The position numbers and the translations under genes are program-made. Below are positions 6,013 through 62,899 of a DNA stretch of 64,000 bases, piece by piece. Positions within the stretch are counted from its first letter, which is position 1; every line of letters begins with the position of its first letter. Below the pieces are notes generated by a model. That model saw only the letters and a list, made by a program, of their open reading frames with translations. It was not told the DNA's origin and searched no databases. The stretch spans positions 1,336,923-1,400,922 of the forward strand of contig CM041204.1 in assembly GCA_023078555.1 (NCBI GenBank), given 5' to 3'. The stretch comes from Ulva prolifera. Taxonomy: Eukaryota; Chlorophyta; Ulvophyceae; Ulvales; Ulvaceae.

Positions 6013-6199
6013 ATGTTTTCGGTGGCTTCACATGCTGTGGCCCTGTGTGTGTATGTCCTGGCCGTGTCGTGGCCCCTGGACACGGACGCACGGCTGCTGC
6101 CGTTGAGCATTCCCCGCGGAGTCGGAGCGCCCCACAGGCGCAACCAAGATGATCTGAGGAGTGATTTGCTGGCAACAGGCCGAGTGCTGCACAATCTCG
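6013..6199 (+). CDS. Exon 1 of secreted gene A: signal peptide and conserved LLxxGRxLH tail
   Basis: The ATG at 6013 opens a hydrophobic signal peptide (MFSVASHAVALCVYVLAVSW) that ends near TDAR, followed by a short linker and the tail SDLLATGRVLHNLG. The exon ends at a GTACGT donor after one base of a Gly codon (phase 1, 187 bases). The same design is seen in four other first exons in this window, at 34969 (-), 48125 (+), 55288 (-) and 62899 (-). The next + strand exons with the family's repeats are at 11023, 12608 and 13360. The distance is large because a LINE occupies 6990-10684. Membership in one transcript with those exons is inferred. The mature product would be exported to the wall, surface or medium. 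Confidence 0.6.
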
Positions 6200-6989
6200 G
6201 TACGTGTTGCGACCCGCCCTGTTACTTTAGGTTTGCACGCGCGCGCCGATCTTCAGGCGTGCATGTGCGCATTTCCACACGTCCACGCATGCATGTGGCC
6301 CATGAGCAGTGTAATCTTGCATGTGACCAATGCGCACTGACAACTGCCACGGCTCGTTACGCTTTCGCACATTCCCTTTTTCACACGTTGCAATAGCAAT
6401 TGCTAGCGCACTACAAGAGAGTGAACGTGAGAAGACAAGCCCCAAAACCGAATCTCATCCGAATCAACAGCAACACACACATAGATCCGAGTCCATGCTG
6501 TCGACACATGATCACATTACGTTGCTAGCGTAGCTACGCGTAGTCAACGTATATAATCGTCGTGATCTGCCCCGGACCCGCTGAAAGTGACGAGCCTTTA
6601 GGTTGTCCCGTCCTGCAACTTGAATACGGTCGCATGCGGACGGCTGCGACGACGAACAAAAAGTGTTTTTGAACAAAATTGCATCGTTTCGCTGGCGCCA
6701 CGGTGCACAGCAGTGTGCTCAACAATGACACAGTGCTATGATATCACTGGTGTCTGCGCCTTCCCTGCCACGCGGCAGGCACTGTGATGTCGCATCGGTA
6801 CGAGTTGTACAACTCAACGTAGGGTATTGGTACAAGTACTTGTCCTGTGTCCCGGCAGCCGCGCGGCTCATCATCATAAATGTCATCTGTTACAATGACA
6901 TCACGATCATCTACTTATCATCTACTTAAGCAATTGAGATCTGAATTGATTCACCTGTAAACTTTTAGACTGAGGGTTAGAGCGAAGGT
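6200..6989. other. Presumed intron of gene A or intergenic, with a LINE 3' fragment
   Basis: No exon recognised apart from the repeat at 6405-6475. The sequence from about 6530 to 6960 is AT-richer and looks unique. Confidence 0.35.
6405..6475 (-). repeat. Short 3'-end copy of LINE family 1
   Basis: It shares GTGAACGTGAGAAGACAAGC and CCGAATCTCATCCGAATCAA (with small differences) with the 3' end of the full LINE at 6995-7065 and with 21905-21962. Truncated copies that keep only the 3' end are the usual by-product of target-primed reverse transcription. Confidence 0.65.
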
Positions 6990-9900
6990 GGTTACAAAAG
7001 AGTGAACGGGAGAAAACAAACACTGAAACCGAATCTCATCAGAATCAACCGCAACATACACTCACACACACACGAACACTACAACCGCACTCACAACTCA
7101 GTCCGGCAGGATCGCGTCCTCCAGGCCCGCATCATATCGCAACCCTTGCTCCCGAGAGATGACAAGCCCAGACTTCCGATACATATCCGCATTGCCGCGC
7201 TGCAATGACACCGACAACACCCGCAGCGCCCACTGGACAAACGCGCCTTTGGAGATGCGCCCACTGGCAGCGGCCACATCCCCCAACTGACCGACGAACC
7301 TCACGGCAGCCTTGCCCATGAAGCCACACGATTCGACCGCAAACGGAACAAACCGGAACGCGGCATGGTCAGGCACGTCCCGCCGGAAGCGGTCCCGCTT
7401 CCTGTCCTCCGCCCGCTCCGCCGTCGCACCCGTCTCCCGCGCCGCAGCGGCCACGTACGAGGCCGCCGGCGCATGCGTGACCACGACGTCCACGGCCGCC
7501 ATCTCCAGGCGCGGCATGACCACGACGACGTCCCCGCGGCGATTCAGCTCAACACCCGCGCCCCTCGCGAGGGCACGGTAGAGCGGCTCCAGGGCAGACT
7601 GCAGTCCGGCGTAAGAGGCGACCAGGCGCAAGGCACGAGCCAGGTTATCATGGCGCATCTGGGTCTCCTTTGCCACCTTCTTGCAGACCATGGCGTGGTC
7701 TGGTTCGGCGGCAACACCTGCACTGCATTTGCACGGAGGGGGGGGGACGTCCGCCGGGACGCGGAATCGCAGGCGGTGCCACACCGCCAGGACAAACATG
7801 TCGTCGCCCATGGTGAGAACGCCGCCCGGAAGAGCGGAGAGGAAGGCGCCTGCAGGCCCCCCCGAAGCGCTCCTGAGCCACGCCGCTTCCCGCCTGCCGG
7901 CCGGCGTGTCGAGGTCGATGCCCTGTAGCACGAGTGAGGCCGCATGGTCCGCGACCGCGCGCCCCACCTCGCGCTGGGCCGCTAGCAGCTTGCCCGAGAC
8001 GAACTCGTCCGGCAGGTCACGGGCATCCGCCTCCCACCCCAGCAGCTCATGCAGCTCGTCGAACAAGCCCTGCCAGCGCTGCAACAGACTGCCCCGGCTG
8101 TGGCCGCGGAGGGGGCGGAGCAGGTCCGGGCAGCCGGCGAGGTTGCGCTCGGCCGTGCCGGCCCCCGACAGAAAAGCCGCGTCAGCGACGCTGTCCACCA
8201 GCATCGTCAGTCCGAGCCCGCCATGCCTGACAGGGGACATCAGCCGGTAAGCAAGCCGCCGCGTCTCAGCGTCAGTGGCCGAGTTGTCAGACGCGGCAGC
8301 AGCCTCCGCAACCTCCGGCGGCAGGCACAGGATTGCGGCGGCACCGCGCCACACAGCGGCCTCCGCCTTGCGCATGTGCGGCTCGAGCACAGCATACGGC
8401 ACCGTCCGCATCAGGTGCGTCATGCGCACACTCAGGGACACACGCAGCAGGAGGAACTGCGCCTGCACTGAGAGCGGGATGCGCACGAGGGTCTCGACGA
8501 GGCCTTCGACCTCGCGCGCCCGCGCGTCCAGCACCTCGGCGACGTACTCCGGGGTGCCCAGCGGCGTGCCGACAGCCTTGAAGCCCGCGTGCAGATCCCG
8601 AATGCCGAGCTCTGCGGCCACGGCGGCCGCCGCCTCCGCGTCGGCGCTGTGGACGCCGCAGGGTTCACCTCAAGCCCAATGCTGCGCACGCCGTCAGCTT
8701 CCACGCACAGCCGCCGGAACACGGCAGCTCCAGCCGCGAGGTCGCCCGCAATGCTGATGTCGTCCAGGTACGCCACCACAGGTGCGCCGGCGCCTGACGC
8801 GTCGACGCGCTCCAAGACAGGGTGCAGGGTCAACGCAAACAGGAGGGGGCCCAGGGGGTCACCTTGGCGGACGCCACGTTGGCAGAGGACCGGCTCGACG
8901 TCCTCCGGAGCGCCCGCGATGTGCAGCGGGGTCCCGGCGCCGTACGCCCACTGCGTGAAGGGCAGCAGCGCCGGGGCACGCTCCTTCACGGCAGCGAACA
9001 TGGCCGCGCGGTCGATGCAGTTGAAGGCGTTCTTCATGTCGACCGAGAACACCGAAGCGCCCTCGGCCAGAGCAGAAGACAGGCCGTGCACTACTGTCTC
9101 GGTCCCGCCCCGTGTGCCAACGCCGACCTGCAGCGGCGCCAGGCTCTCTCCGATGCCGCGGCCGTACTCGCGCAGGGCGCACACTGCCGCGAACCGGTAC
9201 CAGGTCTCCCCCACCGCGATCGGCCGCGTGCCACCGTCCGGCTTCTCCAGGCCGATGAGGAGCCCGTCCAGCAGGAACGTCTCCCGTGGCAGCATGCCGG
9301 ACAGCATGTGGTTGACGACCGCCAGCAGCGCGTCGGTGGCTGCGTCCGAGGATTGGCATGCTGCGCAGATCATCTCGAACGTCCAGCCGGACGGGCCGGC
9401 CGACGACCCTCGATGGTGTGCGCTCACGGCGGCCACCGCCGCCACCAGCGCCTCCCGTGTCAGGCACAGAGCGGGGACATCCGGGTTCGGCTCCAGAGGG
9501 ACCGGCGGATCTGCTGGCGGGAACAAGGCGCGCAGACCGGCTTGGACCTCCGGGGACCGTGCATCTGCGGGCTTGCCATCCTGCAATCCGCGGCCAGCTT
9601 TGTGAATGGAGCGCTTGATGCGAAAGCATCTGTCGATGTGTTGCGCCCGCAGCTGATCTGCAGACATGGGAGCTTTGCGCCTCCCGGGCCAGCGGCCGGG
9701 CGGCGTGTCCTCCCACATCTCCACGGGCAGCCCGAGGGCGTAGTCGCGGCACCGCCCTGCCGCCGCTTTCCCAGAGCGCCGCCCCCTGCTGTACGCTAGC
9801 AGGCGCATGGGCAGGCGCATGAGCTCCTCGAAAGCGGCAACAACCTCCTCTCGCGCGCTGTCGCCGCGCGCATGCGTGCACGCGTCGGCCACCAGCTCCC

Positions 9901-10684
9901 ACACCCTTGTGCACGACTCGGCCCACCCCAGCCGGGCGGCTGGGGGGACATGCTGCGGCAGGCGCAGCCGTGGGGCCGCGTTGGCCCGCTGCACTGGCGG
10001 GGCAGATGCAGCCGCACGGAGCCCGGCCTGTCTGCGGGGGCCCGCCCGCTGCGACTGGCTACCTGCTCCCCGTCCCTTGCCTTTCTTCTTACCTCCCCGC
10101 CGGGCACGTTGCTGCTTGGCGTTGCCGCCCGTGCCCCCACTGGCCTGCGCAGGGGGGGGTGCGCCGGCGGCTGCTGCGGCTTGGCGATGTGGCCGGCGGG
10201 TAGCAGACTGCTTGGCTGCTGCGCCTGCGAGGCCAGGAGGCGGGGGAAGAGGCGGGGAAGGGGTGTCGGCGGAGGCGGGCGGGGGTGGATGGTGGCACTG
10301 TGCAGTGCCGTGAGCCCTGTCGTGCTGGTCGTTGCTGGTGGCTGGCGGCTGCTGAGGGGCAGCCGTGGCGAGCTGAGTCTCACCAGGCACCACATTCAGC
10401 GCCGATTTTACCTGTTTGCTTGTATCTGCAGAGAGATGAGCCTCGGTAGCTGTCCCGCTGGCAGGTGCTGCGCGCCGGCGCTTGGGCTGTGGAGACCCGC
10501 GCGGTGACTCGCGCTGCACGACTGCGAGCTGTCCATTGTTGCAGTTAACAACTTCATTAGTATCTAGGATGCTACGTTGGTCTGTAATCAATAGGCTAGG
10601 TCGCAAGGGCGACTGCGAAGCGTGCTGGCGGTTCAGGTCGCTCAGCTTTGCCTTTGACGGCTCCTTCCGCTTCGGCTTGCCCAT
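6990..10684 (-). mobile_element. Non-LTR retrotransposon (LINE family 1), RLE type, nearly complete
   Basis: The element reads leftward from an ATG at 10684 to a stop at 7098, then a roughly 100-bp 3' UTR. The 3' tail (about 6995-7065) recurs alone at 6405-6475 and 21905-21962, which fixes the 3' end. The body is GC-rich, unlike its flanks. It lies between exon 1 and the Cys-repeat exon of secreted gene A, on the opposite strand, so it probably inserted into an intron or the 5' region of that gene. I did not identify target-site duplications. Confidence 0.9.
7098..10684 (-). CDS. LINE reverse transcriptase with C-terminal Zn knuckle and restriction-like endonuclease; one frameshift
   Basis: The first frame (10684-8432) has a basic, Pro/Ala-rich N-terminus (residues 1-270) with GKKKGKGRG, then the reverse transcriptase: LEKPDGGTRPIAVGETWYRF, GVGTRGGTETVVHG, FSVDMKNAFN, RQGDPLGPLLF and the catalytic box AYLDD. 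Homology passes to a second frame (8621-7098) close to plus-strand 8660, after GLEVNP, so a one- or two-base indel breaks this copy. The second frame holds the thumb (AVGTPLGTPEYV), a CKC...DHAMVC Zn knuckle, and a PD-(D/E)xK-like endonuclease (AAVDVVVTH, AEDRKRDRF, FVPFAVESCGFMG). RT followed by RLE is the plan of early-branching, often site-specific LINEs (CRE/R2/NeSL-like) and of relatives common in Chlamydomonadales genomes. No N-terminal CCHC finger was seen. Confidence 0.92.
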
Positions 10685-10859
10685 GGGACCCTAGCATTGC
10701 AGATATGGTCTAACAAGTATTATCAAATGCCAAGCGCCGAGCCTCCGGGGGCTCGACTGCCATGCCGTGGACGAGGTCAATCGACACGACCAGCAACAGA
10801 CCAGAGACTCGGACCAAGTGTTGTCGAGAGAGCGAAGGTAATGCGGGGCATGAGGCCTC

Positions 10860-10980
10860 CGGCCCGGGGCGACGAGGGGGACGAGGGGGGTGAGGGGAAC
10901 GAGGGTGGTCCGCCGCCCCCCCCACACAGGTGACGGTGCCCCCGGAGGAGTGCGAGCACCCGAGGGCCCCGGGATCCCGG
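10860..10980 (+). pseudogene. Decayed module of gene A: Gly-Asp-Glu block, Pro run and broken Cys repeat
   Basis: 10865-10925 reads GDEGDEGGEGNEGGPPPPP, the same order (triplets, then prolines) as the good exon at 12608. The next 50 bases align by eye to a Cys-repeat unit (GGAGGAGTGCGAG core) but lack about six bases and the opening Cys codon, and the frame is lost. It looks like a worn copy of the module that is intact at 12608-12982. Confidence 0.4.
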
Positions 10981-11022
10981 GATGGCTCATGTGACACTAC
11001 TGCTGATTCCCAGTGCCTGCAG

Positions 11023-11523
11023 CTTGCGGCGACGGCGTCATTCAGCCCCCGGAGGATTGCGAACCCCCGGGCGTTGGCAACTGCAACGCAAATTGCCGAA
11101 TCGGAGCGTGCGGCGACGGCGTCGTTCAGCCCCCGGAGGAGTGCGAGCCCCCGAGCGTTGGCAACTGCGAAGCAAATTGCCGAATCGCAGCGTGCGGCGA
11201 CGGCGTCATTCAGCCCCCGGAGGATTGCGAACCCCCGGGCGTTGGCAACTGCAACGCAAATTGCCGAATCGGAGCGTGCGGCGACGGCGTCGTTCAGCCC
11301 CCGGAGGAGTGCGAGCCCCCGAGCGTTGGCAACTGCGAAGCAAATTGCCGAATCGCAGCGTGCGGCGACGGCGTCATTCAGCCCCCGGAGGAGTGCGAGC
11401 CCCCGAGCGTTGGCAACTGTGACGCAAACTGCCGACTCTCAGCGTGCGGCGACGGCGTCCTTCAGCCCCCGGAGGAGTGTGAGCCCCCGGGCGTTGGCCC
11501 CTGCAACGCAAATTGCCAAATCG
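11023..11523 (+). CDS. Gene A exon: six 28-residue Cys repeats (DUF4215/Myxococcus Cys-rich type)
   Basis: Six head-to-tail units of exactly 84 bp start at 11025, 11109, 11193, 11277, 11361 and 11445. Each encodes CGDGV(I/V/L)QPPE(D/E)CEPP followed by (G/S)VG(N/P)C(N/E/D)ANC, with four cysteines likely to form two disulphides. Such repeats are known from secreted myxobacterial proteins and from surface proteins of protists. Units 1-2 and 3-4 form a near-identical 168-bp higher-order repeat. The exon is bounded by a CCTGCAG acceptor and a G|GTGCGCC donor, phase 1 on both sides. The open frame continues past the donor to 11615, but that sequence matches the start of the intron after the exon at 12608, so it is read as intron. 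The gene shares its family and strand with exon 1 at 6013. Confidence 0.82.
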
Positions 11524-12607: not shown

Positions 12608-12982
12608 AGGATGACAACGAGGGGGACGAGGGTGATGAGGGTAGCAATCCGCCGCCGCCGCCACCACCACCACCACCACCACCACCACCACCGCCGCCTC
12701 CTCCTCCCACGAGCTCTCCGCCGCCACCACCACCACCACCGCCTCCTCCTCCCACGAGCTCTCCGCCGCCACCACCACCACCACCACCGCCTCCTCCTCC
12801 CACGAGCTCTCCCCCGCCACCACCACCACCACCACCACCACCACCGCCTCCTCCTCCCACGAGCTCTCCGCCACCACCACCACCACCACCACCAGCACAA
12901 GTTTGCGGTGATTTGGTCATCCAGCCCCCGGAGCAGTGCGAGCCGCCGGGCGTTGGCAACTGTGGCGCAGAATGCCTCATAG
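12608..12982 (+). CDS. Gene A exon: acidic triplets, long polyproline and one Cys repeat
   Basis: The exon opens after TTTCAG with DDNEGDEGDEGSN, then about 75 residues of polyproline broken by four TSS insertions. Each TSS is part of a repeated cassette (CCTCCTCCTCCCACGAGCTC). It closes with VCGDLVIQPPEQCEPPGVGN...CGAEC, one more 28-residue Cys repeat. It ends ATAG|GTGCGCCTCCC; the first bases of this intron match those after the exon at 11023-11523, so exon and intron edge were copied together. Both ends are phase 1. Polyproline rods between charged and disulphide modules suggest an extended extracellular stalk, as in the hydroxyproline-rich wall glycoproteins of green algae; that role is inferred. 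Confidence 0.78.
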   Translation, partial: RMTTRGTRVMRVAIRRRRHHHHHHHHHHRRLLLPRALRRHHHHHRLLLPRALRRHHHHHHRLLLPRALPRHHHHHHHHHRLLLPRALRHHHHHHHQHKFAVIWSSSPRSSASRRALATVAQNAS

Positions 12983-13359: not shown

Positions 13360-14765
13360 GGGCGTGCGCAGATGGTGGTGATGAAGGCGACGAGGGTGAC
13401 GAGGGTGACGAGGGTGACGAGGGTGACGAGGGTGACGAGGGTGACGAGGGGGATGAGGGGGATGAGGGGGATGAGGGAAATGAGGGAAATGAGGGAAATG
13501 AGGGAAATGAGGGGGACGATGGGGATGAGGGAAATGAGGGAGATGAGGGGGATGAGGGGGATGAGGGAAATGAGGGAGATGAGGGGGGTGATCTGCCGCC
13601 GCCATCACCGCCATCTGCGCCGCCACCGCCGCCACCACCACCACCACGGACGCCACCACCACCGCCCCCTCCCGCTGCCTCGCCACCACCGCCTACGCCA
13701 CCACCACCACCAACACCGCCGCCACCACCTCCCCCTCCCGCTCCCTCGCCACCACCAGATGGTGGCGATGAAGGCGACGAGGGTGATGAGGGGGATGAGG
13801 GGGATGAGGGGGACGAGGGGGATGAGGGGGACGAAGGGGGTGGTCTGCCGCCGCCGCCACCTCCTTCTCCTCCCATGACCTCTGCGCCACCGCCACCACC
13901 ACCACCTGCGGCCCCTCCTGTAAGCCCTCCGCCTCCTCCTCCCGCTCCCTCCCCCCCGCCACAACCACCAGGCGACAGTGGGAATGAGGGCGATGAGGGC
14001 GACGAAGGTGATGAAGGTGACGAAGGGAATGAGGGTGATGAGGGTGATGAGGGTGATGAGGGTGATGAGGGTCGATCCCCTATATTCATTTTCACTGTCT
14101 CAGGGGGGGTTGGCTCACAACCGGGAACCCCAGCCCAACCGGATATATCGCCACCACCACCACCACCCCCCGGCAATGGAGGCGACGACGGGGATGAGGG
14201 CGACGAAGGTGATGAGGGTGATGAGGGGATTGATGGTGATGAGGGCGATGAGGGTGATGAAGGTGATGAGGGTGATGAAGGGGATGAGGGTGATGAAGGC
14301 GACGAAGGGAATGAGGGTGATGAGGGTGATGAGGGTGATGAAGGGATCGATGGTGATGAGGGCGACGAGGGCGACGAGGGTGATGAAGGTGATGAAGGCG
14401 ACGAAGGGAATGAGGGTGATGAGGGTGATGAGGGGATTGATGGTGATGAGGGCGATGAGGGTGATGAAGGTGATGAGGGAGATGAAGGTGATGAGGGTGA
14501 TGAGGGCACATCTCCTATTTTTACTTTCACTGTCTCCGGCGCCAGTGTCCCGCAGCCGGTTGCCCCAGCCCCACCGGTTTCACCACCACCCCTGGTTGCA
14601 TTGCCACCGCCACCACCCCCTGGCAATACAGGCAACAATGGAAACGAGGGCAATGAGGGGGATGAAGGTGATGAGGGCGATGATGGTGATGAGGGTGATG
14701 AAGGTGATGAAGGTGATGAGGGTGGATCCTCTTTCTTTACTTTCACTACTAGTAGTACCTCGTAG
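13360..14765 (+). CDS. Gene A last exon: Gly-Asp-Glu triplet rods, Pro spacers and FTFTVSG motifs
   Basis: The exon enters in phase 1 after GACTCAG and stops with TAG at 14763-14765. Five blocks of strict G-(D/N/I)-(E/D) triplets, about 13368-13590, 13765-13842, 13975-14075, 14178-14510 and 14628-14725, are separated by Pro-rich spacers. The fourth block spans over 100 residues and is broken at intervals by GID. Blocks three to five each run into an aromatic motif: SPIFIFTVSGG, SPIFTFTVSGA, SSFFTFTTSSTS(stop). Glycine every third residue gives collagen spacing, but with Asp/Glu instead of Pro. The predicted segment is extremely acidic and could bind Ca2+ or basic polymers. The antisense frame is also open (Ser-Pro repeats) only because of the nucleotide periodicity. 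It is the likely C-terminus of the gene opening at 6013. Confidence 0.82.
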
Positions 14766-15029
14766 CCCTCGTAGCCATCTCGGCCCATTCAGCTCTCGGG
14801 CATTTGGTTGATTTGCGGCGATTGCCCCGGTCTCTTTCTGGACTGGACCGGTGCGTCGCCTGGGCAAGCAGCTCGTGCACAGCCATGCAGCTGCGCAAGA
14901 TGAGATAGCTTGTGACATTTTGTTAAGTAGTGCATCCATGCTTACCCGGTGGTATTTTGCTACTGTGTCATTCGTCAGTGTCTGCACGGTTGGCAAGGCC
15001 AAGCACAACAGGCAATGAGTATGTGTAAG
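14766..15029. other. 3' flank of gene A
   Basis: No gene, repeat or clear terminator signal recognised. Confidence 0.3.
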
Positions 15030-17340: not shown

Positions 17341-17349
17341 TCCCGACAG

Positions 17350-32476: not shown

Positions 32477-33373
32477 CTACAGGGGCATAAACACCATGTC
32501 CTCGTTGCCCTCGTCCCCCTCATCACCCCCATTGCCTTCGTCCCCCTCATCGCCCTCGTTCCCCTCATCACCCTCATTGCCTTCGTTCCCCTCATCACCC
32601 TCGTTCCCCTCGTCGCCTTCATTGCCATCGATGCTGTCGCCGCCTCGAGTCACTGGTGGCAACAATGGTACTGGTGACGGTAGCGGGTCGCCAATGGGGG
32701 GGGAAGGAATTCGAACGACATCACCAGCTGGTTGTTGGGGTGGCTGCGGTGGTGGTGGCAAGGGAGCGGGGGAAGGAGGCGGAGGACTCAAGGGAAGGAT
32801 CACCGGTGGAGGCAGGGGTGGCATGGCCGCAGCAGGTGGCTGTGGCTCCACCCCATCATCACCTTCGTCACCCTCGTTCCCTTCATCCCCTTCGTCGCCC
32901 TCGCGGCCCTCATCACCCTCATTCCCCTCGTCGCCTTCATTCCCATCGACAGTGTCGTCGCCTGCAGCCACTGGTGGTACCACTACTACGTAGCACCGGC
33001 ACGAGCACTGGTGCGGCCGGGGGTGGCGGAGGCAGGGGGGCTGCAGCGGGGGCGCCAGCTGCTGGCGGGGGAGGTGGCGGCGGCGGCGGCATGGGGCCAG
33101 GAGGCGGTGGCGCTGGCGGCGAGCTCAAGGGTGGCACTGCCAGCGGTGTGGGCGGTGGCGGCACTACCGGCGCAATGGGCTGCGGGGCGGCCCCTGCATC
33201 ACCCTCGTCGCCCACACTGCCGTCGTTGCTACTGTCCGGCGTGATGGGTGCACGTGTGACCAAGCCGTCCGCAGAGGTGGTGAATGTGAAGAAGCGGCCA
33301 GGGGTGGCTGCGCGGCTGCGGCGGCGGCCCCGGGCCGCCGCCTCACGGGGCGGCTGCGCCTCGTCTGGCCCAT
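32477..33373 (-). CDS. Gene C last exon: FFTFTTS motif, Pro/Ala-rich spacers and Gly-Asp-Glu triplets
   Basis: The exon enters in phase 1 after GCTGTTGCAG with GPDEAQPPREAAARG, then GRFFTFTTSADGLVTRAPIT, a short acidic stretch and a Pro/Ala-rich spacer. A second frame from about 32990 holds triplet blocks (GDDTVDGNEGDEG..., then GGDSIDGNEGDEG...) divided by a spacer, and stops at 32477 after NEDMVFMPL. The two frames meet near 32985-33005. No intron with matching phases fits well, so a one- or two-base indel (real or sequencing error) is likelier. Module order differs from gene A: the aromatic motif comes first here. Exon 1 is presumed at 34969-34753 on the same strand. Confidence 0.72.
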
Positions 33374-34752: not shown

Positions 34753-34969
34753 CAGGCACAGCATCGTGCAGCATCCGGCCCCGTGGCAGCCAATCGTCCC
34801 GCAGCACATCGCGTGTGTCGGCCTGGTGGCTGTGCCGTGCAGTGGCTGTGGCCCCTCCAGGCAGTTGCTGCTCCAGCGGCCGCGCGTGGGCGGCTAGGGG
34901 CAGCGCCACAGCGAGCACGCATGCGTACAAGGACGCCACTGGCACGAGTACCGCTGAAATCACTGACAT
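34753..34969 (-). CDS. Exon 1 of secreted gene C: signal peptide and GRMLH tail
   Basis: The ATG at 34969 opens MSVISAVLVPVASLYACVLA and a hydrophobic run ending AAHAR, a good signal-peptidase A-x-A site. A linker and the conserved tail DDWLPRGRMLHDAVPG follow. The donor GTGTGG comes after one base of a Gly codon (217 bases, phase 1). Of the five first exons this is the longest, because the signal peptide has an N-terminal extension. The partner last exon is at 33373-32477. Confidence 0.68.
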
Positions 34970-38558: not shown

Positions 38559-39006
38559 GCAAAGCGATAGTACTACACCCATCAACAAACGCATGTACTG
38601 CTGACAGCTAAAACGTGCCTCTGTTTAAAAATTCTCTTCCCGGCCGTTGTTTCAGGTTCCGATCGGTATACTAGGCTGCTCTGTTGTATCGCACATGTAC
38701 AGCGAAATTGATTAAATGGATTCCCTCAGACTGCATCTGCGACTGCCATGCCTCGACCTTGCCAGACCTATAGACCTGCAGCACTTGTGGATACATCTCG
38801 GCCGCCTGCTGAAGGCGCCAACAAACATCCCGTTGGACCTCTCTACGTTCACGTTCACGTTCAAGCCACACGAACAGTTTGCTCATGATCAGGCACACCA
38901 TATGCTGTACATCCGAGCACGCGCGCAGCCCAGCTTTTTCCGAAAGCCACTCCTTCGTCCAAGCAGCTATCGTATGATCATATTTAGGAAGCCTACGCGA
39001 CTGCAG

Positions 39007-41724
39007 GTGATCGATGCCCAGATCCAGCCCGACCTTTTTACGCCACCCGTCCGCTGCGCCCTTAAGCTCCCCATCAACGGCTCCGCCTGCGGCCTCCTGC
39101 ACGAGACCACCGCCCTCTGCATGATCCATGCCGCCGCCCCCGGCGGCACACACCCCCACGTCACCGCCCCCCAAGCCATCCTCGCCCACCACTCCCCCGC
39201 CCGCACCCCCTCCGGCCACGAAGTCTCCACCAGCCGCGTGGACGCCCTCGCACTGGAGATATACACACGCGACCTCGACGCGCACGTCACGCGCGCCCCC
39301 ATCACCATGCAGTCCGTGTGGCGCATCGCCGGCCAGGTTGTCGGCGCCCTTGTGGACGCAAAGGCCGCCGGCGTCGCCCACGGCGACCTCAAGCCCGCCA
39401 ACATCATGGTCTCCGGCGATGGTCGCACCGCCGCGCTCACGGACTTCGGCAACGCGTTCATCCGCGGCGTCACCCGCGCGAAGCCGCGCGGCTCGCCGTT
39501 CTACTCCCCGCCCGAGGCATTCGACTACCTGTACCGTGTGGCCTGTACTGTCCCGCTGGCGCGCGAGTTTGACCCCTTCGCGGCCGACGTGTGGGCCTTC
39601 GGCATGCTCCTCCTGCAGGCCGCGCTGCCGCAGACCGTCGCGGCGCTGCTGGACTACGACACGTCGATCGCGCGGGACAGCGCGGAGCACCGCCTGCCGT
39701 CCGCCGTGGACGACCTGGTGGACATCGTGCGGGGGGAGATGCGGCACCTCGGCGGGCCGCTGTACGATGAGGGTTTCGCAGCGCTGCTGGACCGCGTGTT
39801 TGTGGAGGACCCGGAGCAGCGCGTGACGATGGAGGGCCTGGTGGAGCTGGTGGAGGCTGCGGCTGACTGGGAGGCACAATTCAGGCGGGCGGAGCGGCAG
39901 AGGATCGGGCTGCCGCCGGTGGGCCCGGAGGATGAGACGCCGGCAACGAGGGACACCGTGTGGTGGGAGTACGACCGGGATCTGAGCTTCAAGCTGGTGC
40001 GGCACGGCATGCGGACGGGGCTGCTGACTTCCGAGGTGTGCCTCCCCTGCAGACTGATGCCCACTTTGATCATCTGTACTGTTGGGCACCTAGCCTGCCT
40101 GTGATGGATCAGGTGCATGTGGGCCATGCATGCGCACCTGTCTGCCTCGTACTGTCGACGTGTTCTTGTGCTACACCGCGCTAGCGTGACCGCAGACAGA
40201 CGTGCATTACTACGACGACCCGCACACTGAGTTGCTATTTCAATTCTATGGCCAGATGAAGATTAATCTACATCTAGCATATCCCACAATCGCACGGAAG
40301 CGGCGTGCAGGACCCATCCCCTCTCGCCGGGCCGGCCGCATGTGCAGCCCTCTCCCCGGCCGCCCCACCGCCCGAGCCCGCGCACTCCGCCGCGGACACC
40401 GACTCCTCCCCACAGGTTACACCCGCATCCTCACCCCCCGCCACCGCATCTGCCTCCCCCGCCTGTGGCAGCAGCTCAGCCCCCACAGCCGCTGAAGTTG
40501 TCCACCGCGCCGTGGCCATGCGCAAAACCTCTGCCGCAGAACCCTGCCTGCCGCCCCTCGACGAGCTCTCCCTCCTGCCCACCGCGACCATCGCACACAT
40601 CTTCAAGACGGTCGGCTTCACCCGCGACATCGCCGAAATCACCTGCCAGGAGGCGGGCGTCCACCCGATCTCCATCGCCCGGGTTCTCTCACTCATGGCC
40701 TCCTCTGCAATCACCAAACCCACTTCCCCGGCCTGCGGACCTGTTTCCGAGGGCCCTCTCCCGATCGCGGCGGAGCAGGAGCGAGGTGCCGGCGGCGGCC
40801 GCCCCTCCTCCGCTGCAGCTGACCCGGCCTGTGACACCCCGGCCACGTGCACGCCGGGTGCGCCGCTTGCGGGGGGGCACGGGACGCCGGCTTCCAACAA
40901 GTCAGATCGCAGCCGCTTCGCGGCGCCGTTTGCCGCGCGCCCGCGTGAGGACGAACCGCACTTCGAAGGACATCAGCGGCCAGAAGCGGCAACAGCGGTA
41001 ACCAACGGCGCCCTAGGCCTCTTGCATGGTGAGCTTCCTCCTGTCAGATGTTCTCTTGGTGAGCGTGCCTCGTCACGTACGGCGGCACACGCGCAGGCAT
41101 GTACCTATTGTGGCGACTGCAGCATGTTGCATGCCCGCAAATGCATCAACACAGCCGCCATCATTATCATCAGCGCACGCGTTGGCTCCCTGGCCTCTAC
41201 TCAGCCTCGACACGGTGGCATCGGCTGGCCTTGGAGGGGCTGCCCTCGCTGCAGTTGCGTTGTCCTCAACCGCACCTGCATCCCATCCTCCGCGTATGGC
41301 GACCGTGCCAATCCCCATCACTGTCTTATGAACAGTACGCCACATTGGGTGCACTCTTGCAGGGGTACGTGCAGAGGTGGAGGCCGAGGAGCAGGAGGCA
41401 CCACAGCCGGCGACGGTGTCGCGCCGCACTGAGGCCGACATGCTCGCGGCGCGGCCCGCGCACCTCAAGCGGGTCCGCCGCTCCACCGACGACGCCCCCG
41501 CCGCGCCGGAGGGGGTCCGGCGCTGCCTCCGCCGCAGCCCCGGCCACGTCTCGGGCTCCCCAGCTGCCGCCGCTGCATGTCCGCCGGCGAGTGGTGCGGC
41601 GTTGCGGAAGCGGGGCCGTGTGGATGGAGGCGGAAGCGGCTCAGAGACGGAGTCTGGCGATGGGCTGCAGGAGGGTGGACGATGTGTCAAGAGGCGCCAG
41701 ATGAGCATGCAGCAGTACACATAA
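39007..41724 (+). CDS. Protein kinase 2, three exons, with long disordered C-terminal tail (5' exon uncertain)
   Basis: Exon a (39007-40035) follows a CGACTGCAG acceptor in phase 0. It has the beta-3 lysine in CALKLPI, the catalytic loop VAHGDLKPANIMV (HGD in place of HRD), LTDFGNAF with the DFG Asp, GSPFYSPPEAF and DVWAFGMLLLQ. A phase-0 intron (40036-40310) leads to exon b (40311-41028), which is Pro/Ala-rich and disordered except for a possible helical piece (LPTATIAHIFKTVGFTRDIA). A phase-1 intron (41029-41362, donor GTGAGC) leads to exon c (41363-41724), which has basic clusters (LKRVRRS, VKRRQ) and stops at TAA 41722-41724. Phases match at both joins. The frame is open upstream to an ATG at 38716, but that part has no glycine-rich loop and looks intronic. 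The tail could direct the kinase to the nucleus; this is inferred. Confidence 0.85.
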
Positions 41725-48124: not shown

Positions 48125-48314
48125 ATGATGTTTGCTGTCATAGCAGGGTCACTGCTGGCCGTTGCGGCGCCTCTGGGCGCCCACGCGCGGCCCCTCCGGG
48201 CCCCAGGCGGCGGCACTGCAGCTCCCACCAGCCACCTGGGCGGCCTGGGCATGGACATCGAGGCTCTCGGCGGCCTGCTCCCAACAGCCCGGGGCTTGCA
48301 GCAAGTCGTGGTCG
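48125..48314 (+). CDS. Exon 1 of secreted gene D: signal peptide and LLPTARGLQ tail
   Basis: ATGs at 48125 and 48128 open MMFAVIAGSLLAVAAPLGAHAR, a short signal peptide with an A-H-A cleavage site. A Gly-rich linker and GLLPTARGLQQVVVG follow, ending at donor G|GTGCGCAG (190 bases from the first ATG, phase 1). It is nearest in sequence to exon 1 of genes E and F (F/L-A-V-I/V start, SPL/APLGA). It sits about 1.35 kb before the last exon at 49663 on the same strand. Confidence 0.75.
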
Positions 48315-49662
48315 GTGCGCAGTCCTGGAGTCACTGGTTACAACTCAATGCCCGCAGCCCGTGCCTGCTAGCCAGGGCGCCTGTCCTGCAGGGCGTCCAG
48401 ATCTTAAGCAGGGAGAGGCCTGCGCGCCCATGGCCACCTGAGCATGACCCTGATGCACCTTGTCCGAGAATGCACCCTGTCCACTTTCCATGCTGTCCAT
48501 TAGTCAGCGCTGCAGTACCTCTGGCAACTGGAATCCGCAGGTACTGTCGCATTGGTCTCTTGCAGCCAGGCCTGGCTTCATGCGTCCGACAGCGGCGTAC
48601 GCATGTATGTACACAGCGGCGTACGCATGTTCCAGTGTCCTGGCACATGCGTATGCTGGGTTGCAGCATTTTGATGATCCAAAAATGACCTGTCAGGGGG
48701 ACCAGGAGAGGCATGGCTTTGATGTATTGTACCTGCTAGCAGCTGCTGGAGCGTTGCAGTCAGTAACTGTGAGCAACCGCTTTCACACACGATGCTGTGT
48801 TGTGCAGAGTGTTGTGCCCCACGTGCGCACCCCTCGGTGACTAATCTCCAGCAGCACAATAAGTGACTAAGTTGGCAAGCACAGCAGTGTTCTCATGGTG
48901 AACCAGGTTCTATTGCGACATGCTGGTGGTTACTTTACTAAGTTCATGAATTCTCATCACCCGGGGACCGATCCCTGTGACCTGATGAGGATGCCTGCAC
49001 ATGCATTGGCATTGGACACACTGCTTCCAATGTCCTTTTCAGGACACGGCTCAGTACATCCAGATTTACTTGACTCTACTTTACACTGCTGTCAAACAGC
49101 ATGGTGGTACAGTGTTGGCGACACCATGATGCCTTTCCAGATCTGGAGTGCAGTCACCACTGCAGCCACCGTGTTCCACATCACTGGTCACGATAAAGGA
49201 CTTGCCCTTTTGTTTTGTCTCCCCAATCGTCTTGCAGACTGACTTGAGTTCTGACTCAGCTGCCACACTTCTGAGTACTATTTTTGAGGCGACTCTTCTC
49301 CCACGATGTACCTCCTATTCAGAGCATGGCTGTTCCAATGCAGCCTCATGTCGCGACATTTGTAGCTGTCAGGCGTACCTGATCACATGCTTTGCCCTGT
49401 CAGGACCGTATGCTGCCACACCCGGACAGGGGCCCGTATCCTGTGTTGCTGCCTCAACTCTTCCGAACTTGACCCAAGTACATGAGTCACGCCAACTGCC
49501 GCCTCTCTCAGCCATTGCAGCGCAGCACCAGGAACTAGAAGCATATGACAACAGGGAGACTCGTCATCAGCAGGGAAACAGAATGGGGCGAGAGCTCTGT
49601 GCGCCACAGCATCGCATCATGTCGGCACACGTGACTGACTCATGCGTGCGGTACTTCTGCAG
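48315..49662. other. Presumed intron(s) of gene D
   Basis: A candidate internal exon, 49041-49190, opens in phase 1 after CTTTTCAG (HGSVHPDLLDSTLHCC and onward) and can end at ACTG|GTCACG. It is weak. No other coding signal recognised. Confidence 0.25.
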
Positions 49663-50597
49663 ACGAGGCAGAGGAGGAGAACGGCCAGCAGGTCATCGAC
49701 GGCCGCAGGACCAACGTCGCCCGCATCACCCGCCGCGTCGTGGCTGGGGGCCCCGCCGTCAGCCCCCCGGGCGTGGACGTGACCAACGATGGCAACGAGG
49801 GCGACGAGGGTGACGAGGGCACCGAGGGGGATGAGGGCGACGAGGGCGACGAGGGGGATGAGGGTGACGAGGGCAATGTGGTGATTATCAACGGGCAGCC
49901 TACTCCCACCCCTGTGGTTGAACCAGCCCCTCCGCAAGTGCTTCCGCCAGCAGAGCCCGTGCCGGCGCCAGTGGATCCTGTGCCTGCACCAGTGGATCCC
50001 GTGATTGTGCCAGCAGAGCCTGTACCCGTGCCATTCAATCCCGTGTCGGCGCCGGTGGACCCGTTGCTGCCACCGCCAGGCAGCCTCGGCGGCGACTACA
50101 TTGACGGCAACGAAGGCGATGAAGGGAACGAGGGCGACGAGGGGAACGAGGGCGATGAGGGGGACGAAGGGAATGAGGGTGATGAAGGGGACGAGGGTGT
50201 TGTGGTACAACCTGTGGTGCCTGCACCGTCCCCTCCGGTGGACCCTGTGGTCCCGCCCCCAGCCCCTCTTCCCGCCCCTGTCACCCCGCTCGCGTCCGCT
50301 CCTCCCGTCGTGACGCCCACGGACCCCGCCCCGCCGACACTCGCCTTTGGGGACCCTGGGGCAGACAACATCGATGGCAACGAAGGTGACGAGGGAAATG
50401 AGGGCGACGAGGGCAATGAGGGCGACGAGGGGGATGAAGGGAATGAGGGTGACGAGGGTGTTGTGGTGCAGCCGGCAGTGCCTGCTCCGGCGCAACCGCA
50501 GCCGTCCCCCGCCCCTGTGGCCACTCCCGCCCCGGCACCGCCAGCCCCCCGCAGGTTTTCTTTTTCCAGTTTCTTCTCCCGTTTCTTCAGTGGGTAG
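49663..50597 (+). CDS. Gene D last exon: conserved NVARITRRVV linker, Gly-Asp-Glu triplets, Pro/Val spacers
   Basis: It enters in phase 1 after TTCTGCAG with EAEEENGQQVIDGRRTNVAR and ITRRVVAGGPAVSPPGVDVT, nearly the same as gene E. Three triplet blocks follow (49789-49875, 50098-50202, 50369-50458), the second and third each opened by (Y/N)IDGNEGDEGNEG. They are separated by Pro-rich spacers with repeated EPVP/DPVPAPV units. The C-terminus, RRFSFSSFFSRFFSG, is aromatic and basic and recalls the FTFT motifs of genes A and C. The stop is TAG at 50595-50597. The gene is convergent with gene E. Confidence 0.82.
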
Positions 50598-51966: not shown

Positions 51967-53237
51967 TCAGCGTAGAAGCACCGGGGCCGATGGTGAGGGG
52001 GCCGGGGACAGGACCTCCGGTGAGGGGGCAGGGGTCGGAGCCTCCGGGGAGGGAGCAGGGGCCAGGCCCTCTGGCGAGGGGGCAAGGGACGGAGCTTCTG
52101 GTGAGGGGGCAGGGGATGGGGTCTGTGGTGAGGGGGCAGGGGCCGGCACCTCCAGTGAGGGGGCAGGGGCCGGAGCCTCCGGTGAAGGAGCAGGGGCCGG
52201 GCCCTCTGGTGATGGTGCAGGGGCCGGGTCCTCTGGTGTGGGGGCAGGGGCCGGAGAGCCTGGTGGTGGGGCAGAGGTCCGGGTCTCTGGTGAGGGCACA
52301 GGGGCCGGAGCCTCCGGTGAGGGAGCAGGGGCCGGAGCATCTGGTGAGGGAGCAGGGGCCGGGCCCTCTGGTGTGGGGGCAGGCGCCGGAGAGCCTGGTG
52401 ATGGGGCAGGCGCCGGGGCATCCAGTAAGGGGGCAGGGGCCGGGCCCTCTGGTGCGGGGGCAGGGGCCTCCGGTGAGGGGGCAGGTGTTGGCGCCTCTGG
52501 AGAGGGGGTGGGGGCGGGGAACCCTGGGGCGGGGGCAGGGGTAGGGCCCTCTGGTGAGGGGGCAGGGGCCTCCGGTGAGGGGGCAGGTGTTGGGGCCGCT
52601 GGAGAAGGGGCAGGGGCGGGGATCCCTGGTGCGGGGGCAGGCGCTCCTGGTGATGGCGCTGAGATCGCTGGGGAGGGGGCTGGGGAGATGTCCAGTAAGA
52701 CAGCAAACTCTGGTGTGGGGACCAGGGTCACTGGCACAGGACCGTTTTCTTCATCACCCTCGTTTCCTTCGTCCCCCTCATCCCCCTCATCGCCCTCATC
52801 GCCCTCATTCCCCTCGTCGCCTTCGTCGCCGTCTGTGTTGTCCCCTAGTGGCGGCAGCGCGGGCTCAGCTGGCACAGGCACGGGATCCGCCAGCACGAGC
52901 ACGGGCAAGGGCTCAGACTCGGGATCGACCTGCGCCAGCCCTGGCGGAGGGGCAGGTGGGGTCGGAGGGGTTGGGACGACGGTGGCGGCGGGCTGCATGC
53001 TCATCACGACCACAAAGTCTCCGTCCCCTTCGTCGCCCTCATCCCCCTCGTCACCCTCGTCGCCCTCATCTCCTTCGGTGCCCTCATCACCCTCATCGCC
53101 CTCGTTGCCATCGTTGGTCACGTCCACGCCCGGGGGGCTCACCACCGGGCCGCCGGTAACGACGCGGCGGGTGATGCGGGCGACGTTGGTCGTGCGGCCG
53201 TCGATGACCTGCTGGCCACTTTCCTCCTCTGCCTCAT
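51967..53237 (-). CDS. Gene E last exon: conserved linker, Gly-Asp-Glu triplets, long Pro-Ala-Ser repeat tail
   Basis: It enters in phase 1 after CTGCTGCAG with EAEEESGQQVIDGRTTNVAR and ITRRVVTGGPVVSPPGVDVT. Two triplet blocks (about 53116-53029 and 52848-52750) enclose a Pro-rich spacer. The final 240 residues are a degenerate repeat of (E/D)(A/G)PAPAPSP, ending SPSAPVLLR before the stop at 51967. PAPSP arrays resemble the arabinogalactan or hydroxyproline-rich glycomodules of green-lineage wall proteins, so heavy O-glycosylation is possible (inferred). The first 45 residues match gene D closely, whereas the tails differ fully. Confidence 0.82.
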
Positions 53238-55110: not shown

Positions 55111-55288
55111 CCACGGTCACTTGATGCAGCGCTCGGCCATGTTGCAGCAAGGCAGCCTCTGGAAGGGCATCCGGGATGGTGAAGTGGCTGTGGTGCGCTG
55201 CAGCGGTGCCAGGCAGGCGGACGGGCCGCGCTAGAGCGCCGAGTGGCGACGCAAGGAGCAGCAGTGACCCCGCCACCACCGCGAGCAT
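55111..55288 (-). CDS. Exon 1 of secreted gene E: signal peptide and GRALHQV tail
   Basis: The ATG at 55288 opens MLAVVAGSLLLLASPLGALAR, a compact signal peptide with an A-L-A cleavage site. A His-rich linker (AAAHHSHFTIP) and EAALLQHGRALHQVTVG follow. The exon ends at donor G|GTGCGTTT (178 bases, phase 1). It precedes the last exon at 53237-51967 on the same strand by about 1.9 kb. Confidence 0.75.
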
Positions 55289-58188: not shown

Positions 58189-58633
58189 TGTGACAAGGAC
58201 AAAGTCGGGCAGGCCGGCAGCACCGCAGGGGATGCGCACGAGCATGCGACCGGACGCTGTACACACACACATGTCAAGCCCGGGCATGGCTCTCGTGCAC
58301 GGCGAGACGGCCACACACTCCATGCCCAGGAACACCACAAGACCGCCACACTGCTGCTACATGTGACATCGGCAACGGCGACAAGGGCACTCCCGCGTCC
58401 CCAGCGAGCAGCCCCGCTGCTACGCGGTGCTTGGTGAGCCATATGGCGTGCCAGCTTGCGAGTGTTTGTGGGTGTGTGTGGTCGTGTGTGTGGCTGTGTG
58501 GATGTGGCCGGCGCGGGTGCTGGAGCTGCGGGGGTGTGTTGGTGTGTGCTGCGTGTGGCTTGTTGCGTGGTGTGCGGTTCCCCTGGTTGCTGCTAGCGGT
58601 GCTACCTGCCTTGCTTGCTTTGTCCTTGTAACA
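58189..58633. repeat. SINE-like heads in inverted orientation (family C)
   Basis: The left head (GTGACAAGGACAAAGTCGGG, +) is near 58190. The right head at 58633 (TGTTACAAGGACAAAGCAAG, -) is followed by GCAACCAGGGGAACCGCACA, shared with 33608. The middle is partly unique. It may be two insertions facing each other. Confidence 0.55.
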
Positions 58634-61144: not shown

Positions 61145-62145
61145 CTAAGCACTCTGCCCTCCACCATCACCCTCGTCACCCTCATCACCCTCATTGCCTT
61201 CGTCCCCTTCGTCGCCCTCATTCCCTTCATTTCCCTCATTGCCTTCATCACCCTCGTTGCCATCTATTTTGTCGCCACCAGCGTTGCCAAGTTGCGGAGC
61301 AGGAGGCGCTGAGATGGCTAGGCCGGGCACCGGCGGAAAGAGCACATCCCAATCGACGCCATCAATTCTTTCGTCACCCTCGTCCCCCTCATTGCCTTCG
61401 TCGCCTTCGTTTCCTTCATTGCCGTCATCACCGTCGCTGTCAGCGGGTGGCGTAGGTAGCACAGCTGGTGTTGCGGGTGCATCTCCTGCCGGCTGGTCAT
61501 CGCTGCCTTCATCACCCTCATCGCCTTCGTTGCCTTCGTCACCCTCGTCCCCGTCATCGCCTTCGTCGCCCTCATCGCCTTCATTTCCTTCATTGCCGTC
61601 ATCACCGCCGCTGTCAGCAGGTGGCGTAGGCAGCACAGCTGGTGTTGCGGGTGCATCTCCTGCCGGCTGGTCATCGCTGCCTTCATCACCCTCATCGCCT
61701 TCGTTGCCTTCGTCACCCTCGTCCCCGTCATCGCCTTCGTCGCCCTCATCGCCTTCATTTCCTTCATTGCCGTCATCACCGCCGCTGTCAGCAGGTGGCG
61801 TAGGCAGCACAGCTGGTGTTGCGGGTGCATCTCCTGCCGGCTGGTCATCGCTGCCTTCATCACCCTCATCGCCTTCGTTGCCTTCGTCACCCTCGTCCCC
61901 GTCATCGCCTTCGTCGCCCTCATCGCCTTCATTTCCTTCATTGCCGTCATCACCGCCGCTATCAGCAGGTGGCGTAGGCAGCACAGCTGGTGTTGCGGGT
62001 GCATCTCCTGCCGGCTGGTCATCACTGCCCTCATCACCCTCATCGCCTTCGTTGCCTTCGTTTCCTTCATCGCCTTCATTGCCCTCATTGCCTTCGTTGC
62101 CCTCGTCACCTTCTCTGCCGTCGATGCTGTCACCATGCATGCCAC
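61145..62145 (-). CDS. Gene F last exon: Gly-Asp-Glu triplets in 58-residue tandem units
   Basis: It enters in phase 1 after CCGTGTGCAG with GMHGDSIDGREGDEGNEG. The body is a tandem array of 58-residue units, each a roughly 33-residue triplet block then SDDQPAGDAPATPAVLPTPP and ADSGG. The array is followed by a variant block (NEGDEGDERIDGVDWDVLF), PPVPGLAISAPPAPQLGNAG and a last triplet block to the stop at 61145. The spacers are short compared with genes D and E and there is no polyproline. The antisense Ser-Pro frame (61194-62240) is an artefact of periodicity. Confidence 0.82.
61429..62030 (-). repeat. 174-bp tandem array inside gene F
   Basis: Three units begin at plus positions 61501, 61675 and 61849 (period exactly 174) with few differences, plus a partial, more diverged unit at 61429-61500. 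The units are in frame. Confidence 0.88.
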
Positions 62146-62742
62146 CTGCACACGGCTGCTTGCTGTCAACAGGTTGGCAAGATCACGACCATAAAGCTGC
62201 GGCATGCGAGGGGTGCGGCGCGGGGCACCAAGGACTCTAGTTCTGCATGATCTCATCATACAGCTCTGACAACACAGGTGTACAGCACGGCATGTGCTCC
62301 CGTTTGCTCAAAATTCTCGGGGTCCTAGGCTACAGCTGTGCTGATGTGGCTAGTGCATCCGATTTGCTCTCACATGGGAAGCAGGCAATTGACCGGTGAG
62401 AGTTCAACACCACCATGTGCATCTTTGTGCTTCGTACAGGACCAGCAGGGTGAGGGGGAGGCATGGTACAGGACTCATGTCCTGTTTGATACATGATGCA
62501 GCAGCTCGCAGAGTCCACGTTGCCAGAGGCGGGACACCTGGCAAACTCAATCTGTACCCGCTTGTACAAGCAGTTGGTGGGATTCGCGTACTGACTGAAA
62601 CATGATCTAACGGGCTTTGATTACTGCGTGTTTCTCTGGAAAAAAATTGCGCCGCCGGCAATTATGGCATTGGTGAGGTCTCTTCGGGAGCAGGCCAGGC
62701 CAGGGAGGGGTGGGGGCACACGTGGGGCAGGGGCGCGAGGAC
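62146..62742. other. Presumed intron(s) of gene F, with one possible internal exon
   Basis: 62592-62345 (-), after a GTTTCAG acceptor, has an open frame with QYANPTNCLYKRVQIEFARC and several cysteines. A second frame of the same stretch is also open, so the reading is uncertain. Confidence 0.28.
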
Positions 62743-62899
62743 CTCCAGCAACCATCAGAATGCGGCCCGGCTGGAGCAGGTCCGCCTGAGACACGATGCT
62801 AGCCTCACCGGGCGCGGTGCGAAGTGGCCTGGGCAGGCGAGCACGAGCCGCAAGCGGCGAGCCCAGAGCCAAAATCGCGCTGAGAATGACCGCAAACAT
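62743..62899 (-). CDS. Exon 1 of secreted gene F: signal peptide and LLQPGRIL tail
   Basis: The ATG at 62899, chosen over the in-frame upstream ATG at 63016 because it aligns with the four paralogues, opens MFAVILSAILALGSPLAARAR with an A-R-A cleavage site. PGEASIVSQADLLQPGRIL and MVAGG follow. The donor G|GTCCTC gives 157 bases, phase 1; it is a weaker donor than in the paralogues. The last exon lies only about 0.6 kb downstream, so this is the most compact gene of the family. Confidence 0.72.

Follow-up and report, generated by a model that had tools for sequence, protein, structure and literature searches.

Five genes in a 64,000-nt stretch of Ulva prolifera DNA (the window) open with related exons that encode a predicted signal peptide, end in phase 1 and are predicted to be joined to exons coding for acidic glycine repeats and proline-rich stretches. 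The five genes are probably paralogues making up a lineage-specific Ulva family of matrix proteins destined for export. A sequence-only reading of the same DNA had proposed a local family of modular genes for secreted proteins that share a signal-peptide exon ending in phase 1, and both leave-one-out profiles and predicted phase-1 sites argue for it. The plastocyanin of this genome is identical to PDB 7pcy in 98/98 residues, pointing to U. prolifera or a close relative. Rfam and ARAGORN scans of the window gave no Rfam match and no tRNA.

The five ATG-led first exons were confirmed at 6013..6199 (+) for gene A, 34753..34969 (-) for gene B, 48125..48314 (+) for gene C, 55111..55288 (-) for gene D and 62743..62899 (-) for gene E. 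Measured up to a GT, they are 187, 217, 190, 178 and 157 nt long, all five being of the form 3n+1 as claimed. In gene A, exon 1 encodes a predicted signal peptide, an Arg-led linker and a GRVLHNL tail. The phase-1 donors read CTCG/GTACGT in gene A, CCTG/GTGTGG in gene B, GTCG/GTGCGC in gene C and GTGG/GTGCGT in gene D. For gene E the phase held but the position is doubtful: the donor drawn earlier at nt 157 is poor (score 2.0), two alternatives that are also in phase 1 score 4.5 (nt 91) and 4.0 (nt 178), and the better-scoring one would move the end of the exon to 62809.

A profile made from the five exon-1 peptides was searched against the ORFs of the window and of 20 fetched loci with wide flanks. 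It retrieved a sixth exon 1, that of gene F (L032:5408-5573, 166 nt = 3n+1), with E = 3.4e-6. The top non-member (E 0.19) was taken to be a seventh exon 1, that of gene G (L036, 145 nt = 3n+1), which sits upstream of a further Gly-X-Glu exon and of which a 100%-identical copy is found in L037. In a leave-one-out test with six members, each of the six held-out peptides was top-ranked outside the training set among 5459 ORFs (E 1.6e-13 to 8.2e-5). The same was obtained for 7/7 peptides with seven members and 6962 ORFs, with E ranging from 1.3e-12 (C) to 5.9e-4 (A) and reaching 0.024 for G, the rank of which is not independent because G was picked out of the same ORF set. Pairwise tblastn of exon 1 connected C with D (1.6e-10), D with F (2.1e-7) and B with C (1.3e-5). 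As exon 1 of A and E gave no pairwise match at E <= 0.01 among the matches listed, the membership of these two rests on the profile. On these sequence comparisons, B, C, D and F are considered strongly linked to the family, A and E moderately and G marginally.

Using an ad hoc rule that combines hydrophobicity with a small-x-small criterion, six of the seven exon-1 peptides passed as signal peptides vs 24/920 background ATG openings; the one failing was that of G. The A-x-A motif expected before an arginine is present in B, C, D, E and F, while A displays T-D-A and G displays A-H-G. Concerning the tail, for which the consensus LLxxGRxLhxVxG had been given, a loose R-x-L tail was retained, but the consensus itself is weak. 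Profiles built from the tail alone clearly recovered two of the seven members (B with E ~3e-5, D ~2e-5), ranked A third (0.073) and lost C, E, F and G. The tail by itself does not carry the exon-1 family.

Donors were ranked by a simple ad hoc score and splice sites were picked from consensus, so that all gene models are predicted ones. With this score, the top-scoring donor from nt 90 on was in phase 1 in 7/7 genes, in line with the claim that exon 1 stops in this phase. Phase-1 acceptors are present in each of the seven genes, and all joined frames (7/7) are open to a stop. The further claim that a Gly-Asp-Glu/Pro exon is entered in phase 1 after exon 1 applies directly to the models of C, D and E, but neither to A, where a Cys-repeat exon comes next, nor to B, where the frame is kept only via a small intermediate exon. 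Beyond exon 1 the second exons differ: they carry Cys repeats in A, a DEAEEE module in C, D and F, and another short module in B; in E and G the Gly-X-Glu sequence follows nearly directly. The wider set of Gly-X-Glu ORFs displayed no excess of phase 1, the nearest strong acceptor being in phase 1/2/0 in 10/9/5 of 24 ORFs, as counted by a crude rule with the window genes included. As far as the accessible part of PMC1626468 goes, secreted-protein genes of animals and plants generally have an intron in phase 1 close to where the signal peptide is cleaved, and therefore a phase-1 exon 1 is not diagnostic.

Gene A possesses two additional exons with Cys repeats. Exon 2 (11023..11523, +) consists of six 28-aa Cys-rich repeats and exon 3 (12608..12982, +; acceptor TTTCAG/) combines a short DEG stretch, poly-Pro/TSS and one Cys repeat, both exons being of class 1-1 by predicted sites. 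Exon 4 (13372..14765, +), which extends to the stop, codes for Gly-Asp-Glu blocks and poly-Pro. The predicted protein has 818 aa and a net charge of -193. Two overlapping frames on the opposite strand of intron 1 (7098..10690, -), one with a reverse-transcriptase domain and judged LINE-like, do not belong to the protein. Exon 2 scored above the curated cut-off of both DUF4215 (PF13948; 38.2 bits, cut-off 27) and TIGR02232 (36.5 bits, cut-off 20.8), and the exon 3 ORF gave no Pfam match. Among the five window genes, this cysteine-rich acidic repeat was seen in A only, as phase-1-ended exons. The module is also present in another gene, L054, where phase-1 sites were predicted on either side of four of the six Cys modules found by pattern; the remaining two are one module with phase-2 acceptors that lacks a donor in range and one with a weak acceptor. 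Predicted phase-1 sites likewise flank exons 2 and 3 of A and exon 2 of B, with sites of other phases occurring nearby too. The C-terminal domain of L054 gave no Pfam match. A single-sequence AlphaFold2 model of the Cys array (mean pLDDT 65.7) has approximately one 9-residue strand per repeat; Foldseek returned 21 matches at E <= 10, none of them at E <= 0.001, and no sequence relative was found in the PDB at E <= 1.

In gene B, the proposed exon 2 (33203..33373, -; 171 nt, DGPDEAQ...NDGSVGDE) is of class 1-1 by predicted sites and the proposed exon 3 (32477..32961, -) has a Pro-rich stretch between two Gly-X-Glu blocks, continuing to the stop. Exon 2 of gene C (49663..50597, +) comprises the DEAEEENGQQ module, three Gly-X-Glu blocks, Pro-rich stretches and a RRFSFSSFFSRFFSG end, and exon 2 of gene D (51967..53237, -) has a DEAEEESGQQ module, two Gly-X-Glu blocks and a long AP/SP-repeat tail. 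In exon 2 of gene E (61145..62145, -), the Gly-X-Glu blocks lie within a 58-aa unit that is repeated in tandem in the DNA (174 nt, 3.8 copies, 98% match). The DEAEEENGQQ module of C is 91% identical in D and 81% identical in F, with no fourth genome match at E <= 10. Apart from exon 1 and this module, no small internal exon common to the genes was seen among the tblastn matches listed, the remaining ones being out-of-frame readings of Gly-X-Glu DNA, or short and weak.

Two accounts of how the family grew were weighed, each of them rather unlikely. The first one is plain duplication, in which an ancestral two-exon gene, with a signal exon and a Gly-X-Glu exon separated by a phase-1 intron, was copied along contig C9 and the second exons diverged without being exchanged. 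All members found are indeed located on C9: the five window genes, two loci beyond the window and the one identical copy. Genes C and D are diverged copies in tail-to-tail arrangement: they are similar at the DNA level in exon 1 (114 nt, 72%) and in exon 2, and 0/17 matches fall within the intron (48335-49640). Apart from D itself and C, a whole-genome search with exon 1 of gene D found just F, marginally (0.91), and a weak match on contig C1 (2.5). Against this account, a gene on contig C7 also has the Cys-repeat exons seen in gene A, which requires at least one exon gain.

The second account, which is held tentatively, is that Ulva has assembled an ECM toolkit by class 1-1 exon shuffling independently of animals. 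Its parts would be a mobile signal-peptide exon together with Cys-repeat, proline-rich and Pro-free acidic Gly-X-Glu modules, the latter mimicking the glycine spacing of collagen and acting as an extended Ca2+-binding polyelectrolyte cross-linker, not as a triple helix. The accessible text of one review (PMC8001218) asks what confines exon shuffling to Metazoa. Like the metazoan class 1-1 proteins covered in that text, the Ulva proteins are predicted to be secreted and modular, with candidate symmetrical phase-1 boundaries; a module is repeated as separate exons (L054), and the Cys module and exon 1 occur in varied contexts. Unlike these proteins, the host is a green alga, the modules are other ones and the cases are few. 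Exon shuffling has also been claimed for brown algal receptors, judging from a title cited in PMC8307928. If the toolkit account is true, a multicellular green seaweed enlarged its secreted matrix proteins via phase-1 exon modularity, a route discussed as animal-restricted in the accessible text of the review (PMC8001218).

The downstream exons alternate Gly-(Asp/Asn)-Glu runs with proline-rich stretches, and the seven predicted proteins have net charges of -43 to -193. True collagens are an improbable alternative, by which the Gly-X-Glu blocks would trimerise to a triple helix, perhaps stabilised by Ca2+, and give Ulva an animal-like fibrous matrix. Across the seven models, unbroken Gly-X-Y runs are between 7 and 38 triplets long (minimum set: 6), and Pfam Collagen (PF01391) was above cut-off in 4/5 scanned Gly-X-Glu ORFs (A, C, E and F), with at least 125 matches in the genome at no fewer than 79 places separated by over 3 kb. 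Gene D stayed below (24.7 vs a cut-off of 27.2), and for gene B, of which the scanned frame is the proline-rich one only, no match was obtained. The relatives that a Gly-X-Glu block has in the PDB are for the most part collagens and collagen-like peptides, which match it in the spacing of glycine. Against a collagen stands the composition. Collagens normally depend on Pro/Hyp or on paired opposite charges. Here the blocks are all-acidic and none of the 295 Gly-X-Y triplets of the seven models has Pro at X or Y, which makes a real triple helix doubtful; also, no trimerisation domain was among the Pfam matches of the scanned ORFs. Neither an Ala-rich tail beside another Gly-X-Glu gene nor a domain of 140 residues that follows Gly-Asn-Glu exons gave any Pfam match. 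The accessible part of PMC9266709 reports 28 'collagen' genes in U. mutabilis and four in U. compressa, with genomes of 80.8-98.5 Mb and 57.2-57.3% GC (here 88.9 Mb for the genome and 57.7% for the window). That part gives these genes as counts, with no description of a common exon 1, a phase-1 architecture or a Pro-free acidic composition. The earlier statement that the architecture is not recognised as a named family calls for qualification, given the Collagen matches, the DUF4215/TIGR02232 exon of gene A and the reported Ulva genes. If the proposed reading is correct, Ulva 'collagen' counts may partly rest on Pro-free acidic repeats that are probably not collagens.

A search pattern fixing G and E and leaving third bases and X free collected 601 triplets, in which the third base of the Gly codon is near free (1.81 bits) while X is Asn or Asp in 570 (N 303, D 267), indicating that the Gly-X-Glu runs are maintained by selection at the protein level. 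GC-rich minisatellite DNA with accidental open frames and chance signal-like openings close by is thus hardly credible, despite the 9-, 18- and 27-nt arrays given by Tandem Repeats Finder at these places, since the leave-one-out tests also retrieve the exon-1 family.

Since a secretion-signal exon is predicted to be joined to acidic Gly-repeat and Pro-rich exons, the genes look like an exported cell-wall family. An exported wall or matrix protein is the simplest reading of the models, perhaps Ca2+-binding and proline-rich, as a variant of a broadly known kind. Pro content ranges from 7.6 to 26.3% in the seven models and [ASTV]P pairs from 11 to 99, the highest number belonging to the whole protein of gene D; PPP+ runs are present in five of the seven (A, B, C, D and F) and in neither E nor G. 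The predicted signal peptide and the Pro-rich sequence with PPPP, AP and SP runs resemble the hydroxyproline-rich glycoproteins and arabinogalactan proteins of green algae, from which the family differs by its long all-acidic Gly-X-Glu blocks. AGPs are reported in Ulva in the accessible portion of PMC10762512. For the matrix-protein family, exon 1 would be spliced to the acidic and Pro-rich exons, and the proteins would enter the secretory route with cleavage of the signal peptide just before the Arg. The Pro-rich stretches may carry hydroxyproline and O-glycans, in the manner of hydroxyproline-rich glycoproteins. The strongly acidic blocks would remain extended, bind Ca2+ and form bridges to anionic polysaccharide of the wall, for example ulvan. 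The family would gain members by duplication along the contig, and further modules, for example the Cys-repeat exons of gene A, could be added with the frame intact because the family boundaries are in phase 1.

The strings NEGNEGNEG, DEGDEGDEG and GNEGDEG were absent from the literature searched. A viral origin of the Gly-X-Glu blocks was considered and rejected, as 17 pattern matches in IMG/VR yielded 0 confirmed ones. A bacterial search for similar repeats gave 378 pattern stretches, of which 53 were confirmed at 47 loci; 34/47 belong by title to genera that we take to be Rhodobacteraceae. These (Asp/Asn)-Glu-x repeat proteins have a similar low-complexity triplet, the two scanned were both above the Pfam Collagen cut-off, and no Pro modules were seen in those inspected. 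The resemblance serves as a lead, with no homology claimed: by inspection, the (D/N)-E pair is constant and the third residue varies in the bacterial repeats, whereas Gly is constant in the alga.

The signal-peptide first exons proposed by the sequence-only reading were confirmed, start and end, in the five window genes A to E, at 6013 (+), 34969 (-), 48125 (+), 55288 (-) and 62899 (-), respectively. A profile of these five peptides was run against the ORFs of the window and 20 loci fetched from the same genome. It detected a sixth first exon on the same contig outside the window (gene F, L032:5408-5573, E = 3.4e-6), while the next-best non-member, in locus L036, lies upstream of a Gly-Asn-Glu exon and was taken as a seventh (gene G). 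In leave-one-out searches with six members, the held-out peptide was in every case the top-ranked ORF not used for training (E = 1.6e-13 to 8.2e-5; 5459 ORFs). With seven members all ranked first again (6962 ORFs), at E values from 1.3e-12 (C) to 5.9e-4 (A), and 0.024 for G, whose rank is not independent as G was picked from the same ORF set. Pairwise links were obtained for C-D, D-F and B-C; no pairwise match at E <= 0.01 was present for the first exons of A and E among the matches listed. Loci L036 and L037 (777500-787000 and 802200-811500 of the contig) share 9,301 bases with 100% identity at a spacing of about 24.7 kb. This could be an error of the assembly or the outcome of a very recent duplication.

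The profile signal is carried chiefly by the signal peptide and the segment directly after it. A profile of the part following the small-x-small motif recovered B and D (E about 3e-5 and 2e-5) and placed A third, but missed C, E, F and G. The proposed tail consensus LLxxGRxLhxVxG is therefore a loose R-x-L motif at best.

Donors were scored with a simple rule of our own, GT sites being counted from nucleotide 90 onward. The top-scoring GT is in phase 1 in all seven genes, and in gene B a second site of equal score is likewise in phase 1. The phase also held for gene E, but the donor originally chosen there scores 2.0, less than two other phase-1 sites at nucleotides 91 and 178. In each of the seven genes, A to G, the second exon is preceded by a phase-1 acceptor ending in GCAG, and predicted splicing yields frames of 818, 290, 374, 482, 385, 332 and 291 residues, all with stops. 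Overall, the sequence-only reading is confirmed in part: it was correct on the family and on the phase, its tail motif holds weakly, and the models of two genes depart from it. In gene A, two predicted exons (11023-11523 and 12608-12982) separate the signal exon from the Gly-Asp-Glu exon that had been said to follow it. Gene B read straight on ends at 217 residues, and its later Gly-X-Glu blocks need a predicted 171-nt exon (33373-33203), then sequence from 32961 onward. Intron 1 of gene A holds a reverse-transcriptase frame (8435-10690, -), and a copia-type gag/pol fragment lies at 2481-4097 (-).

Gly-X-Glu tracts were searched with Gly and Glu set, leaving x and every third base free. The window and 19 fetched loci gave 601 triplets in 64 tracts, with x being Asn in 303 and Asp in 267, and 1.81 bits at the Gly third base. 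With Gly third bases that vary almost freely and a near-constant Asn/Asp, the DNA is not a young minisatellite; what is conserved is the protein. The Pfam Collagen model scored 110.3 (A), 75.7 (E), 54.5 (C) and 34.7 bits (F), and 24.7 bits in D, under the 27.2 cut-off. Across the genome it gave at least 125 matches, a few holding stops, in at least 79 places separated by more than 3 kb. At least 28 of these places cluster within 0.62 Mb of contig C3 (1.35-1.97 Mb), where the one locus sampled, L048, is a Gly-Asn-Glu gene. Proline was absent from X and Y in all 295 triplets of the seven predicted proteins, whose net charge ranges from -43 to -193. A true triple helix seems unlikely; a Ca2+-binding extended polyelectrolyte is judged likelier. 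In L041 (1646-2770, -), the Gly-Asn-Glu blocks run for five to seven triplets, and after each comes a basic Gly-Arg-Lys/Gly-Lys-Lys block, for the most part in Gly-X-Y register; this charge pattern differs from that of the window genes.

Between the blocks of A to D and F, proline-rich stretches are of the hydroxyproline-rich glycoprotein (HRGP) type by sequence (99 [ASTV]P pairs in D, 19 PPP+ runs in A); this character is weaker in E and G. The first interpretation, a family of secreted modular genes with exported wall or matrix proteins as the simplest reading, is partly supported, and the family would be one of Ulva 'collagen'/HRGP-type exported proteins with a common first exon and a phase-1 build. 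No description of this combination was found in the accessible portions of the literature on collagen-like proteins, exon shuffling, green algae and Ulva.

Gene A also carries a 28-residue Cys repeat (DUF4215, 38.2 bits; TIGR02232, 36.5 bits), found again in a gene on contig C7 (L054). Of six Cys modules detected there by pattern, four have predicted phase-1 sites on both ends; a fifth has phase-2 acceptors and lacks a donor within range. Cys modules with such predicted phase-1 flanks follow the same pattern as animal extracellular proteins in the exon-shuffling literature (PMC8001218, in extract). According to an extract of PMC1626468, genes that have undergone no shuffling also commonly carry a phase-1 intron close to where the signal peptide is cleaved. 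The window can be explained by simple duplication along its own contig, C9, together with a single acquisition of Cys exons by gene A. The DNA of C and D is alike in exon 2 and in 114 nt of exon 1 (72%), and their intron contains none of the 17 BLASTN matches. In a genome search, the exon-2 module DEAEEENGQQVIDGRRTNVARI... turned up in genes C, D and F and nowhere else. Across 24 Gly-X-Glu ORFs, window genes included, a crude count gave no phase-1 excess (phases 1/2/0, 10/9/5). The plastocyanin intron, read from translated exons, is in phase 0, which shows that introns of this genome are not all in phase 1. The two joined plastocyanin exons match PDB 7pcy at all 98 residues, with 1iuz second; these entries are the plastocyanins of Ulva (Enteromorpha) prolifera and Ulva pertusa, respectively.

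The assembly comprises 88.9 Mb in 44 contigs, with 38 PF00504 matches for chlorophyll a/b-binding genes; the window is C9:1336923-1400922. GC content of the window is 57.7%; published Ulva genomes have 57.2-57.3% and sizes of 80.8-98.5 Mb (PMC9266709, in extract). The genome is accordingly taken to be that of Ulva prolifera or of a very close relative. Between family members lie two long open reading frames that encode protein kinase domains (27438-29813, -; 38716-40101, +).

In L054:1742-4664, Cys repeats over separate exons are accompanied by a C-terminal domain that contains Cys and matches nothing in Pfam. A common domain (...EYAGGFDGYWSVDAGDGHEDG...) is located downstream of the Gly-Asn-Glu exon in L035, L039, L045 and L047, the L039 copy having no Pfam match. 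The Gly-Asn-Glu query also matched 47 bacterial loci (L055-L101), 34 of them Rhodobacteraceae by title; 7 of 13 inspected start with a brief N-terminal stretch that ends in [AS][PN][VLI]SF and leads into (Asp/Asn)-Glu-x repeats. Finally, a single ORF in L044 (C3:8255000-8264500, -) combines a similar signal peptide, a Kazal-like region, a Gly-X-Glu block and an acidic Pro tail; the Kazal_2 score of 22.2 bits falls short of the 22.8 cut-off.
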